From: a virus | Reading direction: 5' to 3' (one strand) | Length of the DNA: 38,622 nt | Virus record (IMG/VR): IMGVR_UViG_3300025299_000009 | Coordinates: 1-38,622 of that record | Shown here: positions 28,480-38,302 of the stretch, in pieces | Numbering within the stretch: position 1 is the stretch's first letter | How the letters are laid out: each line of letters begins with the position of its first letter | Translations under genes and position numbers: made by a program | Notes under the pieces: model-generated | The model's database searches: none | What the model saw: the letters and a program-made list of their open reading frames with translations, nothing else | Told to the model about the DNA's origin: nothing

Positions 28480-28510
28480 TTGACTCCTAGAGGCTGTTTG
28501 TTCTCATAAT
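28480..28510 (+). promoter_or_regulatory. Sigma70-type promoter of the SOS operon
   Basis: TTGACT (28480-28485) and CATAAT (28505-28510) form -35 and -10 elements separated by 19 bp, slightly long. Transcription would start near 28517, ahead of the 75-aa gene, with GAGG (28523-28526) as ribosome site for ATG 28536. The -10 element is inside the LexA box. Confidence 0.6.
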
Positions 28511-28514
28511 GTTC
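28500..28514 (+). promoter_or_regulatory. LexA (SOS) box, alphaproteobacterial type
   Basis: The sequence is GTTC TCATAAT GTTC, a perfect match to GTTC-N7-GTTC, the LexA operator of Rhizobium, Sinorhizobium, Rhodobacter and relatives. The extended half-sites GTTCTCAT are also repeated directly. It covers the -10 element of the forward promoter and stands in the gap between two divergent operons, as a repressor site should. The HMCES/YedK (SOS-associated peptidase) gene three genes downstream gives independent support. Confidence 0.8.
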
Positions 28515-28535
28515 TCATATCCGAGGACGAGAACA

Positions 28536-28763
28536 ATGCAAGCCGAGCCGGTCGACCAGCGCGTCGAGGACACGACGTTAGACGCCGAAATCTCGGGACT
28601 GATTGCAGAGCTGAGAGAAGAGCACGGCTCTGATGAAGCCGCCCTGCGAGCCCTCGCGCATGACTTCATCGTCCTGATGGCCGATGCCGACCGCTCGGTA
28701 TCGCGCGGTTATCTCCGCGGTCTGTTTTCGGAGGGAGCGCGGCCGATCCGCGAAGCCGAATGA
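28536..28763 (+). CDS. SOS operon gene 1: 75-aa acidic protein, function unknown
   Basis: I start at ATG 28536 because an upstream ATG (28509) lies inside the LexA box and before the predicted transcription start. The 75-residue protein is acidic and almost wholly helical (EISGLIAELREEHGSDEAALRALAHDFIVLMADAD). No Cys and no membrane helix are present. No family is recognised. It is the first gene of the LexA-controlled operon and is followed 3 bp later by the Cys-rich gene. Confidence 0.72.
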   Translation: MQAEPVDQRVEDTTLDAEISGLIAELREEHGSDEAALRALAHDFIVLMADADRSVSRGYLRGLFSEGARPIREAE

Positions 28764-28766
28764 GCC

Positions 28767-29141
28767 ATGGCACCGCCGAACAAGGACACAGAGCTGCGGG
28801 ACTTCCCGTGGGTCGTGGTGCGCTTCAGCTGCTACTACTGCCGGCGTCGGGCCAACAAGCGACTGGCCGCGCTCGTCTGGCACTACGGCATGCACGCGAC
28901 CTTGGCGCAGCTCGTGGCCGCGTTCCGGCGCCCCTGTCCCTGGCGACACGACAACCTCGAACGACGGCCGCAGAAATACGGGATGAAGTGCGGCGCCTAT
29001 TGCCCCGACATCGGCCGGACCTCCCCGCCGGATTGGCCTGGGCCGATGATGGGCCTCACCCTGATTGAAGGAGGGAAGGATGACCAGCTTCCAGCCGAGC
29101 CTGCGCCAGCCGAAAGAAGGCGCCGCATCGGAGGTGATTGA
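28767..29141 (+). CDS. SOS operon gene 2: Cys-rich, probable zinc-binding protein
   Basis: The 124-residue protein carries Cys22-Cys25 (CYYC) and a second pair, Cys75 and Cys79 (CGAYC), with Cys57 between them, consistent with one structural zinc ribbon split by a helical insert (RLAALVWHYGMHATLAQLVAAF). Similar two-Cys-pair proteins occur in rhizobial phages and genomes without an assigned function. A nucleic acid-binding role is plausible but not shown. Its last 62 bp overlap the clamp-motif gene. Confidence 0.72.
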   Translation: MAPPNKDTELRDFPWVVVRFSCYYCRRRANKRLAALVWHYGMHATLAQLVAAFRRPCPWRHDNLERRPQKYGMKCGAYCPDIGRTSPPDWPGPMMGLTLIEGGKDDQLPAEPAPAERRRRIGGD

Positions 29142-29373
29142 TCGCGTCCGAGATGCTGTCCGTTACGCCTGGGAGACCAGCGAATTTGCAGCAGCGGTGG
29201 CGGATGATGTCGACGACAGCGGATTCGAGTGGTTCACGGATCTGGCCGAACAGAACGATTGCGAGGTCAGCGGTCCCTATATGGGGCATGCGGAAGGGCC
29301 TGGAGACTATTTCCTCGTCCGCCACCGTCCGAAGCCACCAATACCGCAGCTCGACTTATTCCTGCGGACTTGA
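29080..29373 (+). CDS. SOS operon gene 3: 97-aa protein ending in a beta-clamp-binding motif
   Basis: ATG 29080 with GGAGGG upstream gives 97 residues. The protein is acidic in its centre (AVADDVDDSGFEWFTDLAEQNDCE), probably folded as a small alpha/beta domain. It finishes with a Pro-rich linker (RPKPPIP) and then QLDLF (residues 90-94) plus LRT. QL[SD]LF is the classic consensus by which polymerases, MutS, UvrC-type and other factors bind the bacterial sliding clamp DnaN, and its position on a flexible C-terminal tail is right for a functional site. I infer clamp binding. What it does there (recruitment or inhibition) is unknown. Confidence 0.78.
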   Translation: MTSFQPSLRQPKEGAASEVIDRVRDAVRYAWETSEFAAAVADDVDDSGFEWFTDLAEQNDCEVSGPYMGHAEGPGDYFLVRHRPKPPIPQLDLFLRT

Positions 29374-29427: not shown

Positions 29428-30153
29428 ATGTGTAATCTCTACAGCCACACCCGCAACGTCGAGGCGATGCGGAAGCTGTTCGCCAAGTTCGACGTAGCCG
29501 CTCAGATCGTGCCGCAACCCGGCATCTTCCCGGATTATGCTGCGCCCATCATCCGGAACCAGGCCGGCACGGACGTTCCGGAACTCGTCTTGGCGCGCTG
29601 GGGCATGCCGAGCAGCAAGAAGGCTCTGCTCGATGCGGCGACGAAGCGCGCGGACAAGTTGCGGGCGAAGAACAAGCCGGTCGACTTCGACGAGCTGCTC
29701 AAGATGGAACCGGACAGCGGGACGACGAACGTCCGCAACTCCTCGAGCTCACATTGGAAGCGCTGGCTCGGCCTCGAAAGCCGATGCTTGGTTCCGTTTA
29801 CATCGTTCAGCGAGTTCAATCGTGATGCCGGCGGGGACGTCTGGTTCGCGTTCGGCGAAGATCGCCCCACGGCCTTTTTCGCCGGGATTTGGACGAAAGA
29901 CTGGACCAGCGTGCGCAAGATCCGAACAGGCCTAGAGACGATCGACCTCTACGCTTTCCTGACGACTGAACCGAACGCCGAGGTCGGCGCGATCCATCCG
30001 AAGGCTATGCCGGTGATCCTCACGACGCCCGAAGAATGCGCGGCGTGGATGACGGCTCCGTGGGAGGAGGCGAAGGCGTTGCAACGCCCCCTCCCCGATC
30101 GCTCGCTCGACATCGTCGCACGCGGGCTGAAGAAAGACGGTGAAGCCGCCTAG
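29428..30153 (+). CDS. yedK: SOS response-associated peptidase, HMCES/YedK family
   Basis: This 241-residue SRAP protein carries all the active-site marks: Cys2 exposed after Met removal (MCNLY), Asn101 and Arg103 (TNVRN), Glu129 (TSFSEF) and His190 ([10 protein letters not shown]). The family forms a covalent thiazolidine crosslink between Cys2 and an abasic site in single-stranded DNA, protecting replication forks from strand breaks. It is the fourth gene of the LexA-controlled operon, 54 bp after the clamp-motif gene. The overlap with an opposite-strand small ORF at its end is 4 bp. Nothing in the sequence suggests decay. Confidence 0.95.
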
Positions 30154-30266: not shown

Positions 30267-30444
30267 GACTTATTGGGGAACGCGGGCCCGGAAAAGCAAG
30301 AGGCTGACACCGCTTCCCAAGCTGATGTAACGCGTTCGCGGCGACCGCCTTCCGCTTGCGGCGCATGAGAAGTATAGATCTCGGTGGGAGAATCACTCTT
30401 ATTTTCTGCTTCGAATCGATTCACTCCCTCAGTAGAGGTTGGTC
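30267..30444. other. Intergenic spacer at the edge of the AT-richer island
   Basis: The 178 bp change from GC-rich to AT-rich composition toward the right. Possible promoter elements for the AlbA_2 gene exist (TATAGA near 30373), but with a poor -35, so no promoter is claimed. A short inverted pair, CCGC TT GCGG, lies near 30350. No gene is seen on either strand beyond the 38-aa ORF. Confidence 0.4.
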
Positions 30445-31287
30445 GTGCTCCCATCTGCGCCATCTCCGATTACCGCCCAGGATGTTCGGCGTCTTATTGG
30501 AATGAGAGAGGGACCGATCCTTGAATTGAAGCGAGAAATTCCTCGACTTAATGATCAAGGGAAGGTTGAGCTTTTAAAGGACGTATCCGCGATGGCAAAT
30601 GCTATCGGCGGATCGATAGTCTATGGAATAGAAGAGAAAGATGGCGTAGCTTCAAAATTGGTTGGCATTCAATCTGATAATATCGACGACCTCTGTGTAA
30701 ATATAACAAACATCATTGCGACTGGACTCTCGCCCGCTGCCGCAGGAATTGAAATTCTGCATGTAATGGTCGAAGAGATTTCTATAATTATAATTCGCAC
30801 AACAGAAAGTCATCTAAAGCCACACCGCGTCATATATGGGGGCCGCAGCAAGTATTATCTGCGACACGGGATGAGTTCTCGGGAAATGACAGACGCCGAC
30901 CTGAGGATGACATATACGAAAGGAACTTTTCTCGGAACACATATCGATGGCGTCGTCATAAAACCGAATGATTTGTTATCAGTAGGTCAGGGAAGATTGA
31001 GCAATCGCACCATAACAAATTGCACATTCCTGGGACCAGGCACGTTAGTTATTCTTGGAAATACTTTGAGTAAAAATGAATTCCGTAATTGTCAAATGAT
31101 AGTAATACCCGGCGACAATTCCAGAACCCCAATACGATCGTCGGGCATAATAGGATGCCACGTGACCGGATGCTTTTTCTTTGACCTCACGTTGATTGTT
31201 CCACCAAATGTTCTGGAAGCATTTGTCGCAGATATGCCCAGTTTCCTTGAGCATATGCCGATCATATGCGACGGAAGGCGAAATTAA
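30445..31287 (+). CDS. AlbA_2/Schlafen-like ATPase-type domain fused to a beta-repeat domain
   Basis: I start at GTG 30445, with AGAGG six bases upstream (TTG 30439 is an alternative), giving 280 residues. Residues about 10-140 match the AlbA_2 (divergent AAA_4, Schlafen-like) domain: EGPILELKREI, DVSAMANAIGGSIVYGIEE, and KYYLRHG near its end. The C-terminal part is a cysteine-bearing beta repeat (ITNCTFLGPGTLVILGNT, FRNCQMIVIPG, GCHVTGCFFFD) resembling a small beta-helix. The gene is AT-richer than the phage, marking separate ancestry. AlbA_2 proteins occur in several phage-defence and regulatory systems; its function here is unknown. Confidence 0.8.
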   Translation: MLPSAPSPITAQDVRRLIGMREGPILELKREIPRLNDQGKVELLKDVSAMANAIGGSIVYGIEEKDGVASKLVGIQSDNIDDLCVNITNIIATGLSPAAAGIEILHVMVEEISIIIIRTTESHLKPHRVIYGGRSKYYLRHGMSSREMTDADLRMTYTKGTFLGTHIDGVVIKPNDLLSVGQGRLSNRTITNCTFLGPGTLVILGNTLSKNEFRNCQMIVIPGDNSRTPIRSSGIIGCHVTGCFFFDLTLIVPPNVLEAFVADMPSFLEHMPIICDGRRN

Positions 31288-32119: not shown

Positions 32120-32268
32120 AGGGCCCTCGCACGATAATTGAACCTGATTTGTTCCAGCGGGGGGGGAGATATGAGTCCCTCTCCCGCTACCACTTCCAAG
32201 AGTCAGCGCGGTAAGGCCGTTTTCACGATGCACGTATAACCTTCGGCGAATGCTAGCTGGGGGTACTG

Positions 32269-33084
32269 ATGATCCTGCTCTATTGCGATGAAACGAACTT
32301 GGAGGAGCGAAACGGGGATTTTCTGATCTATGGTGGTTTAGGTATTCCAGCCGATCGCGCGCTCGGCCTCTCTCGCTCGGTTGATGATCTGAGAAAGGAA
32401 TACAAGCTTGATCCTACCTTTCGGCTGAAGTTTAATCCCGGCCCCAAACATCTCGATCATCAGGAATTTATCGCTCTTAAGCAGCGAGTAATGGAAGCTG
32501 CTGTCGCGCATGGCGCTCTTTTGGTTGCCTACCTCATCTTGCACGACATAGCGAAAAGCCCCGATGAGGGCCGGCGAAATGGGATCAACGTCGTCTGCTA
32601 TCATTTCGACTGCTTGTTGAGGCGCAGCGAGCGTCATGGGCTTGTGCTAATCGATCGCTTCAACGATGCCGGGAACCTGATCGAAGCGCATCTGACGGAA
32701 AAATTCTCGATCGGCCTGGTCGGCATGCCATACTCGAGTCAGATGCGGCTCGGGAACATTATCGGGTTGCACTATTCGGCAATCGGCCAGTCGCACTTCC
32801 CCAGTATCGTGGACATCGTGCTCGGGTCTTTGCGGTTCGCGATTAACGCGCATACCCGCCGAAAGCAGGAGCATCACGTCACCGCTGGCGCTCTGCTAAA
32901 GCTCCTGGCGCCGATGTGCTGGCGAGACAAGGACAATGGGCCAGTGTCTGAGCTCAGCGTCGCTTTCAGTCCAAAGGTTGTAAAGGCCGATCATTATCGA
33001 GCTGCCTATCAGGGGCTAAAGGATTTCCTTGCTGCAAATGGCATCGAAACCGAGCAGCGGATCGAGGCGATCCGTACATACTAA
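32269..33084 (+). CDS. DUF3800 family protein
   Basis: Preceded by GGGGGTACTG, ATG 32269 gives 271 residues. The N-terminal strand carries the family hallmark YCDET (Asp7-Glu8; the usual form is Y-x-D-E-S). A second acidic strand is LVLIDRFND, and a C-terminal stretch, SQMRLGNIIGLHYSAIG, corresponds to the Q-x-A-D-x-x-A region, with the Asp replaced by Asn. DUF3800 proteins are thought to have an RNase H-like fold, and many lie in phage-defence or mobile regions; catalysis is unproven and may be weakened here by the change. It is the last gene before attR. Confidence 0.82.
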   Translation: MILLYCDETNLEERNGDFLIYGGLGIPADRALGLSRSVDDLRKEYKLDPTFRLKFNPGPKHLDHQEFIALKQRVMEAAVAHGALLVAYLILHDIAKSPDEGRRNGINVVCYHFDCLLRRSERHGLVLIDRFNDAGNLIEAHLTEKFSIGLVGMPYSSQMRLGNIIGLHYSAIGQSHFPSIVDIVLGSLRFAINAHTRRKQEHHVTAGALLKLLAPMCWRDKDNGPVSELSVAFSPKVVKADHYRAAYQGLKDFLAANGIETEQRIEAIRTY

Positions 33085-33385: not shown

Positions 33386-34474
33386 TCAGGCGGCCAGCGG
33401 AGCAAGCCTTCGAATGAAATCGGCCTGAGACTCGCAACCAGTCTTCGCGAGAATCCTCTTGATCTGTGTCCGGACGGTCTCCCGAGAAACGCCGCGCTCG
33501 AGCACGATCTCGTCGATGGTCAGGCCTTTGAGGATGCGGCTGGCCACGGCGGCCTCGGCGCGCGTCAGGTCATAGAGTTCGCAGAGCAGCGAAGCTTCGA
33601 TGCTCAGGCTCCGATCGGCCGTGGTGACCACCAGCATGGCCTGCGCTCGCGAGAAGATATCGAGCGCCTGCCGCCGGATCGGCAGCACGTGGATAATGAA
33701 GGCCGACAAGTCGTCCTTACGAGGAACCGGAATCGAGCGCGTATCGCCAATGCGATCCCGAGCGAGGTCTAGCAGGGCCGTCTGAAGAAGCGCGTTCGCG
33801 CGAACATCGTCGAGCGCGATCTTGCCCCGAGCGCGGATGACGATCTGTCCCAGAAGAGCCTCGAAGCCGGGGTTCATCGCCGTGACACTGCCGCTGGCGC
33901 TGATCAACGCGGCTCGCGCCCCTGCCCGCTCGAAGGAGTCCAGACTGGCCTGTGCCCGCTGCATCTGAAGCTTGGAAGCGAGCACTGCCGCCCGGGCCAG
34001 GTGCGGCCGAATGCCGTCGAGAACCTCTACCGCTTCGCGGGGAACTGGGCCGAGTTCGAACTTGCGCTCGAGTGTGAAGACGATGTTCTCTCCGGACGAT
34101 GCGCGAACATGGGTGGCCGTGCCCCAACCGTAGCCTTCGGGCCGCAGAAAATCCGTGTACATCTCGTCCTTTTCCAACTCCTCGTCCGAGAAGATGTCGT
34201 GGTCCGTGATGAAGCCGGTTCCGCCATGGGCCAGCAATCCGGCCATGCGGGTGTTTCGGTTCATCCAGCCTTGCGCCATGAAGCGCTCGAAAGCCGGCGC
34301 GAACTCCTTGTTGGTGACCCAATTGGTGCCGAGCTCGGAATGGGCGAACAACAGCCCTCCACTGCAGCCCACAATCTGGGCGAGCCGCTCGATGGTATCG
34401 GGCCACATCTCGGGCACTGCAGCGGCCTCGTAGAGCCTTGCCACCGCATCACCGAATTCGGTCGTATCCAGCAT
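33386..34474 (-). CDS. LuxR-type transcriptional regulator with an N-terminal sensory region
   Basis: The 362-residue protein ends with a LuxR/FixJ helix-turn-helix domain (about 295-355): YDLTRAEAAVASRILKGLTIDEIVLERGVSRETVRTQIKRILAKTGC in short overlapping pieces is the classic four-helix signature. The first 170 residues form a GAF/PAS-like sensory part and a PAS-like segment follows (GSVTAMNPGFEALLG). Orphan LuxR regulators of this shape are frequent in Hyphomicrobiales; the ligand is unknown. It is the first host gene after the prophage. Its start is divergent from the methyltransferase gene. Confidence 0.92.
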   Translation of the reverse strand: MLDTTEFGDAVARLYEAAAVPEMWPDTIERLAQIVGCSGGLLFAHSELGTNWVTNKEFAPAFERFMAQGWMNRNTRMAGLLAHGGTGFITDHDIFSDEELEKDEMYTDFLRPEGYGWGTATHVRASSGENIVFTLERKFELGPVPREAVEVLDGIRPHLARAAVLASKLQMQRAQASLDSFERAGARAALISASGSVTAMNPGFEALLGQIVIRARGKIALDDVRANALLQTALLDLARDRIGDTRSIPVPRKDDLSAFIIHVLPIRRQALDIFSRAQAMLVVTTADRSLSIEASLLCELYDLTRAEAAVASRILKGLTIDEIVLERGVSRETVRTQIKRILAKTGCESQADFIRRLAPLAA

Positions 34475-34639
34475 TTCGTCATCCCCCAGACCGTGGTGCG
34501 CGGATGCCGCATCACCGCCAAATCGTCAATCATCGCCTTGCTAGAGGATGAAGCTTAAAGCAGTATCTCGCGCTCTCGCCGAGTCATTCTCGACTATATC
34601 CACTTGAGTTAACTAAGCTAAATTCTCTGGGAATACGGC
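34475..34639. other. Divergent intergenic region between regulator and methyltransferase
   Basis: The 165 bp are AT-richer than the flanking genes, as expected for a shared promoter region (TATATCC and TTGAGTTAACTAAGC near 34595-34617). No element is sound enough to be called a promoter or operator. Confidence 0.4.
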
Positions 34640-35389
34640 ATGAACATCGCAGTTTTTGCGCAAGAATATCTTCGGGCGGCCATTCGCAAACCGAGTCAAT
34701 TCCTCAAGAGATACCCGGCACGGCTGTGCACGATTTGTGGCTATGAAGGGCGTTTCCTGGACGTCGGTCCACGTCCCGAGGCGCGCTGTCCCAATTGCTC
34801 CTCCAAGGAACGCGACCGAATCATGGGGTTGCATCTGCGCCGGAACGGCCTCGACCTGAGCGACAAGGCCGTGCTGCACTTCTCGCCGGAACGCCCGTTC
34901 TTCCGGCTTTGGCGGCGTAACCCGCGCTATGTGGCGGGAGACGTCAAGATCAGCAAGGTCGCCAATGCCGTCGTGGACATCACCAATATTCAGTTCAACG
35001 ACGGATATTTCGACTACCTGATCTGCCACCATATCCTCGAACATGTGCCCGAAGACGCGAAGGGCATGAGCGAGTGCTTCCGCGTGCTGAAGCCGGGTGG
35101 CGTGGCTTTCTTCTCGGTCCCGCTCGATCAGGAGCGCGCAGAGACCTGGGAGCCGCCACCGGACATGCCTGCGGCCGAGGTCGAACGCATCTGCGGCTGG
35201 GACCATGTCAGGCTCTACGGCCGCGACTTCCCGGACAAGCTCGCCAAGGCAGGTTTTTCCATCTCGGAAATCGCCTTCACGGCGGAGGAGGGAGAGCGCC
35301 ATCGCCTGACCGAGAAACACGATCTCGCACTTCAGGGCCTCGATCGGATTTTCGTGGGCACGGTGCCGGCCGAGGCTAGGGATCGCTAG
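34640..35389 (+). CDS. SAM-dependent methyltransferase with N-terminal zinc finger
   Basis: This is a 249-residue class I methyltransferase. N-terminal residues about 30-58 hold a zinc ribbon (CTICGYEGRF... ARCPNCSSKERDR, two CxxC pairs). A methyltransferase type 11 core follows: VLHFSPE, a VAGDVK strand, FDYLICHHILEHVPED (motif IV/V) and FRVLKPGGVAFFSVPL. The substrate cannot be told; relatives are often linked to cell-surface sugar or natural product pathways. It is not in an operon with lon, which is on the other strand. Confidence 0.87.
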   Translation: MNIAVFAQEYLRAAIRKPSQFLKRYPARLCTICGYEGRFLDVGPRPEARCPNCSSKERDRIMGLHLRRNGLDLSDKAVLHFSPERPFFRLWRRNPRYVAGDVKISKVANAVVDITNIQFNDGYFDYLICHHILEHVPEDAKGMSECFRVLKPGGVAFFSVPLDQERAETWEPPPDMPAAEVERICGWDHVRLYGRDFPDKLAKAGFSISEIAFTAEEGERHRLTEKHDLALQGLDRIFVGTVPAEARDR

Positions 35390-35601
35390 GCTTCGGGAGG
35401 CGACACGCCGGCAGAGCCGCCCGCCGTCATCTCCCTCGACAAGGCACGCTGAGAGACGCTGACCACGGATTGTACGGCGCCCCGGCAGGCCAGCGCCGCC
35501 TCAAATAGAGGCCGTCGCGGACGACGCAGCTCTTGAGCCGCCCGCAAAAAGAAAACCGCCGACGCTTGCGCGCCGGCGGTTCTCATTTCTCAGACCGAAG
35601 G
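35390..35601. other. Spacer between the convergent methyltransferase and lon genes
   Basis: About 210 bp containing the lon terminator (separate entry) and no convincing gene. A reverse-strand frame at 35386-35586 runs through the hairpin itself and is unlikely to be coding. Confidence 0.55.
35546..35580 (-). terminator. Intrinsic terminator of lon
   Basis: On the reverse strand ACCGCCG and CGGCGGT (35574-35580 with 35555-35561) pair around a 12-base loop and are followed by a T-rich tract (TTTTCTTTTT; plus-strand A-run 35546-35555). It begins 22 bp beyond the lon stop. Confidence 0.85.
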
Positions 35602-38028
<2,427 letters not shown>

Positions 38029-38167
38029 GGCAGTTCCTTTGCAGTTGCGCCCGGCGGACCCCCAAGATGGGCGGAGCGATCGGACGTAAGCGGCCAGAGC
38101 GACCATCGCTCCTCCGCCCTCGCGCATCGCACCCTCGACAGGCATGCGACTCTCGCAAGTGGACCTA

Positions 38168-38196
38168 AAGTGGAGACTTCCTCGCCGGCTTTCAAG
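38168..38196 (-). promoter_or_regulatory. Candidate heat-shock (sigma32) promoter of lon
   Basis: On the reverse strand CTTGAAA (38196-38190), 14 bp spacing, then CTCCACTT (38175-38168) resembles the sigma32 consensus (CTTGAAA ... CCCCATnT). The start would lie about 130 bp before the lon ATG. Lon is a classical heat-shock gene, which supports the call, but the -10 part matches only partly. Confidence 0.35.
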
Positions 38197-38302
38197 CGAG
38201 GCACCACGGCCATGCACCGCTGCCTTGCAGTGGCCGCAAGCCGCGGCTCTCTCCACCTCCCATCCCGGGCTTGTGCCAGAATGGAAGGCCTGTTCTTGAA
38301 CG

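Follow-up and report, generated by a model that had tools for sequence, protein, structure and literature searches.

Does a small prophage protein that ends in the peptide QLDLF dock on the sliding clamp (DnaN) of its host, and is such docking used in the life of the phage? The protein, P0001, is encoded in the window, by which we mean the whole analysed stretch of 38,622 nucleotides from IMG/VR record IMGVR_UViG_3300025299_000009. The window is a prophage followed by an apparent host flank, and its relatives place it among Bosea-type Alphaproteobacteria. By eye, the flank past the prophage contains LuxR-like, methyltransferase-like and Lon protease ORFs (approximately 33386–38256).

The P0001 gene (29080–29373, + strand) starts with an ATG that lies inside the 3′ end of the upstream gene (overlap of 62 nt), five bases downstream of a good Shine–Dalgarno sequence, GGAGG (29070–29074, +), and its translation is MTSFQPSLRQPKEGAASEVIDRVRDAVRYAWETSEFAAAVADDVDDSGFEWFTDLAEQNDCEVSGPYMGHAEGPGDYFLVRHRPKPPIPQLDLFLRT. 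The product, of 97 aa, consists of a core alpha–beta domain (approximately residues 15–82) and a unique tail, in which a Pro-rich linker, RPKPPIP (29326–29346, +), is followed by QLDLF (residues 90–94; 29347–29361, +), LRT and the stop codon. The C-terminal end reads RPKPPIPQLDLFLRT and the terminal stretch before the stop YFLVRHRPKPPIPQLDLFLRT. A hand count gave 18 D/E vs 9 K/R residues. On the translation and the ribosome-binding site, the ORF, the linker and the peptide given in the preliminary description are real, and the protein is small and acidic as stated there.

The consensus clamp-binding motif is Q-phi-x-[L/M]-[F/L]; QLDLF fits this consensus and is the strongest pentapeptide known (PMC11139829). 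In P0001 the consensus is located at the end of the protein, as in the DnaN clients Pol II, Pol IV and Pol III alpha, but P0001 is neither a polymerase nor a known repair enzyme, and the motif is missing in its own family. The AlphaFold model was modest (mean pLDDT 65.8), with an alpha–beta core; past residue 82 it shows no secondary structure, the tail being modelled as coil at low confidence (pLDDT mostly 49–65). The strongest clamp pentapeptide on a tail modelled, albeit at low confidence, as coil makes an interaction with DnaN plausible. Judged from sequence, P0001 probably binds DnaN in vitro, while the chance that this binding is used in the life of the phage appears to fall a little short of even.

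Based on the local amino-acid composition, QL[DS]LF is expected within the last 10 residues with p = 7e-6 per protein (approximately 1e-5), and the loose form QxxL[FL] with p = 2.5e-3. We scanned 67 Bosea-genus genomes for the GC-rich QLDLF codons CAGCTSGAYCTSTTY near TGA and obtained five matches, compared with three for a reversed-pattern control; of the five, only two lay in the reading frame at the C-terminus of a protein, and a single family of HTH-like prophage proteins accounts for both. By these sequence counts, QLDLF at a protein end is rare. As P0001 was picked by eye for its motif from many windows, however, rarity alone is no proof of function. The HTH-like protein of approximately 120 aa (L133, L134 and L137–L139) conserves a C-terminal QL[DN]LF, also in further viral contigs, indicating that phage proteins of Bosea-type hosts do end in this way; the ends seen in these five were QLDLFAGTG, QLDLFP, QLDLFA and QLNLFR. 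Like P0001, it is a small prophage protein of the same host group with the same C-terminal peptide, but its domain is unrelated and its peptide, unlike that of P0001, is conserved among its homologues.

P0001 had no match in Pfam, NCBIfam or PADLOC and only a marginal one in PHROG (E 0.04). With P0001 as the sole query, homologue searches of phages, plasmids, and viral and genome contigs returned nothing, and an order-wide search of 397 genomes gave no match, a weak null in that the centre genome itself was without a match. Fold searches with two models (mean pLDDT approximately 66) gave no significant match. An RraB-like ferredoxin fold was considered and not supported. Contig-end frames of L030 (positions 1–120) spell MCIRDS and MYKRQ, which we take to be a common assembly artefact.

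The relatives of P0001 were reached only via its neighbour genes, through the matching slot in other prophages and then in the 67 Bosea-genus genomes. Approximately 12 were found, all keeping the core, with genome-scale matches of E down to 3e-6; the family has so far been seen only in Bosea-type prophages, and a family-level search of the 397 genomes matched only genomes already within the genus set. There are long forms of approximately 204–212 aa (L050, L051, L054, L056, L058, L064 and L065, with L177 and L179 more distant) and short forms of 106–114 aa (L067, L068, L069 and L070). Residues C61, G65, P66 and L79 were invariant in 10 family sequences, and both the core C-x3-GP and the following strand (G/D-Y-Y/F-L) are present in P0001. 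Some of the similarity at the N-terminus follows of necessity from the overlapping upstream gene; the family core lies outside this overlap. The proposal that the protein belongs to no known family thus stands with respect to the named databases, but P0001 is a member of an unnamed Bosea-type prophage family and not an orphan.

In this family the slot lies between a gene for a Cys-containing protein (or umuC) and the SRAP gene, mostly overlapping the former, and P0001 fits this arrangement. Its upstream gene (28767–29141, +) encodes a Cys-containing, possibly zinc-binding protein of 124 aa, with relatives at 46–83% identity in Bosea-type prophages, and is preceded by a conserved module gene of 84 aa (28509–28763, +) without a family match, a similar ORF preceding the module in several sister prophages. 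The downstream gene (29428–30153, +) encodes a 241-aa SRAP protein (PF02586, E 1.9e-18) of the YedK/HMCES superfamily. In L176/L069, the family member is located between a umuC-type polymerase gene (IMS, IMS_C, DUF4113) and the SRAP gene, in agreement with the published association of SRAP operons with the translesion polymerase genes umuC, dinB and imuB (PMC3765255). In some prophages (L011/L049 and L048) an unrelated protein occupies the slot. The P0001 gene, which directly precedes the SRAP gene of a Bosea prophage, is translated into an accessory protein whose family evolves fast. A search of positions 28500–29100 for the SOS box GAAC-N7-GTTC, with one mismatch allowed, found none. Elsewhere, an exact GAAC-N7-GTTC resembling the alphaproteobacterial SOS box is present at 32140–32154, approximately 115 bases 5′ of the ORF at 32269, and could be due to chance. 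Downstream of the SRAP gene, an AlbA_2/Schlafen-domain protein (30439–31287; PF04326, E 4.5e-14) is possibly an accessory or defence protein.

We then turn to the tail, whose conservation in homologues the preliminary description had put forward as a check. The homologues keep the rest of the protein, and neither QLDLF nor any other QxxLF end was present in any of those read (approximately 12, long and short). For a conserved clamp partner, this is the refuting outcome that the preliminary description had named. The family as a whole thus does not conserve the peptide, and the tail is private to this prophage; no close homologue sharing it was found. The short forms end in GDTLGYLGLA, TYGFWGLG or YYLVERKKAA, while the long forms run on into a second domain. 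From this comparison, the QLDLF of P0001 may be a recent lineage-specific gain or an accident of shortening. The second possibility is suggested by the position of the tail, which begins where the long homologues open the first strand of their second domain: P0001 would be a shortened long form whose tail is left over from the opening beta-strand of the missing second domain, and its match with the clamp motif would be fortuitous and unused. In the long-form model, the second domain opens with a strand at residues 100–105, where P0001 has LDLFLRT; L050, L056, L058 and L065 run on from the same point as PRKEGPRPLWKNVIVYDTK, and the hydrophobic LDLFLRT aligns gap-free on their NVIVYDT. The absence of QLDLF from every short homologue and the selection of P0001 for its motif point in the same direction. 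On the other hand, the tail shows no significant DNA similarity to the long forms, an exact QLDLF behind a Pro-rich linker would arise by chance at approximately 1e-5, and short forms occur naturally (L067–L070), so that shortness need not mean decay. We consider such a coincidence a serious possibility, though on balance a doubtful one.

Further evidence on the clamp comes from the neighbouring SRAP protein, from which P0001 differs in lacking a SRAP domain and the catalytic Cys2 (no Pfam match), being a separate alpha–beta domain. The window SRAP ends in GLKKDGEAA, with no clamp-type peptide, whereas several SRAPs of sister prophages end in QGDLF, QADLF, QGSLF, QGALF, QAALL or QATLL. SRAPs encoded by host chromosomes of the Bosea genus (L080–L109) ended in QGSLF in 30 of 30 cases, after variable tails, and 13 of 30 from Alphaproteobacteria (L140–L169) ended in Q-x-x-L-[FL], including QLSLF, QMTLF, QADLF and QFSLF; both sets were the best PF02586 scorers and not a random draw. 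For the class-wide set, composition alone would give this number with p approximately 2e-21, a value uncorrected for kinship, with genomes drawn class-wide. Among phage-type (MCNLYS-like) SRAP ORFs in genome loci, fragments included, 10/22 ended in QxxL[FL]. Since position 2 of the clamp motif prefers an aliphatic residue (PMC11139829), weaker binding would be expected of QGSLF than of QLDLF. In the literature searched, of which coverage was incomplete, we found no statement that SRAP/YedK ends in a clamp-type peptide or meets the clamp. A copy of the L050-type SRAP in L064/L171 has lost its QGDLF tail, apparently by frameshift, and ends in VARGEEG. The clamp-type peptides at the ends of neighbouring SRAP lineages make it probable that the P0001–SRAP module has some connection with the clamp.

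One form of such a connection would be a split tether, in which P0001, a separate polypeptide bound to SRAP, supplies the clamp peptide missing from the window SRAP and brings the phage SRAP to host DnaN in trans. This attractive idea draws on the contrast between the QxxL[FL]-type ends of sister SRAPs and the window SRAP, which lacks one and is adjoined by a P0001 ending in PPIPQLDLFLRT. It rests on one genome, however, and in the SRAP tree the clamp-type tail is scattered and comes and goes: the SRAPs of both the window and L010 are without it, and no CBM-bearing neighbour was seen for L010 and other tail-less members. A tether is not required, since L010 has a tail-less SRAP and no P0001-like gene. 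Binding of P0001 to SRAP as its missing peptide is thus unlikely, and the broader form of the proposal, with split tethering here and bacterial SRAPs in general as sliding-clamp clients, is likewise improbable.

The preliminary description also raised a clamp blocker resembling SocB, the clamp-binding toxin of Caulobacter, by which P0001 would compete with host polymerases for DnaN and slow host replication. As a strong consensus match, the peptide could be a competitor for the DnaN pocket, DnaN-targeting toxins such as SocB and RipA exist (PMC12795458), and SocB is likewise a small alphaproteobacterial protein, for which P0001 has a parallel in its proposed docking in that pocket. In contrast to SocB, P0001 has no recognized SocA-like or other antitoxin-like partner, its neighbours being the Cys-containing protein and SRAP; its gene occupies a repair-associated slot; and its homologues lack the peptide, indicating that this is not a family of clamp-blocking toxins. 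Family searches on P0001 gave no match pointing to SocB, and nothing like SocAB was found. The toxin proposal is therefore unsupported, and we regard it as very unlikely. The SRAP neighbourhood, with umuC as well in one relative, favours repair or replication over a toxin.

Recruitment of the clamp for phage repair or replication, the other suggestion of the preliminary description, is retained in part: the best-binding pentapeptide and the SRAP/umuC neighbourhood argue for it, but the peptide is not conserved in the family. P0001 looks like a clamp client, and we speak of resemblance and not of established membership because the motif, when examined for conservation, was absent from the relatives. 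In the preferred reading, the 15-residue tail would have been acquired in the lineage of this prophage and would act as a flexible clamp-binding motif docking in the hydrophobic pocket of host DnaN. Through such docking, the small core domain would be brought to replication forks or to sites of repair, with damage tolerance alongside SRAP (and UmuC in one relative) as the most likely setting. From the evidence at hand, that P0001 is a damage-tolerance accessory protein with a gained DnaN tether is close to an even prospect, tilting slightly against.

If the tail binds DnaN, P0001 would show cleanly how a phage protein can acquire, within a DNA-damage module, a peptide for docking on a host hub. 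The C-terminal motif of SRAP is a more general, testable lead than P0001 itself: clamp-type ends on the SRAPs of many Alphaproteobacteria would explain the route by which bacterial SRAP, which shields abasic sites, reaches replication forks.
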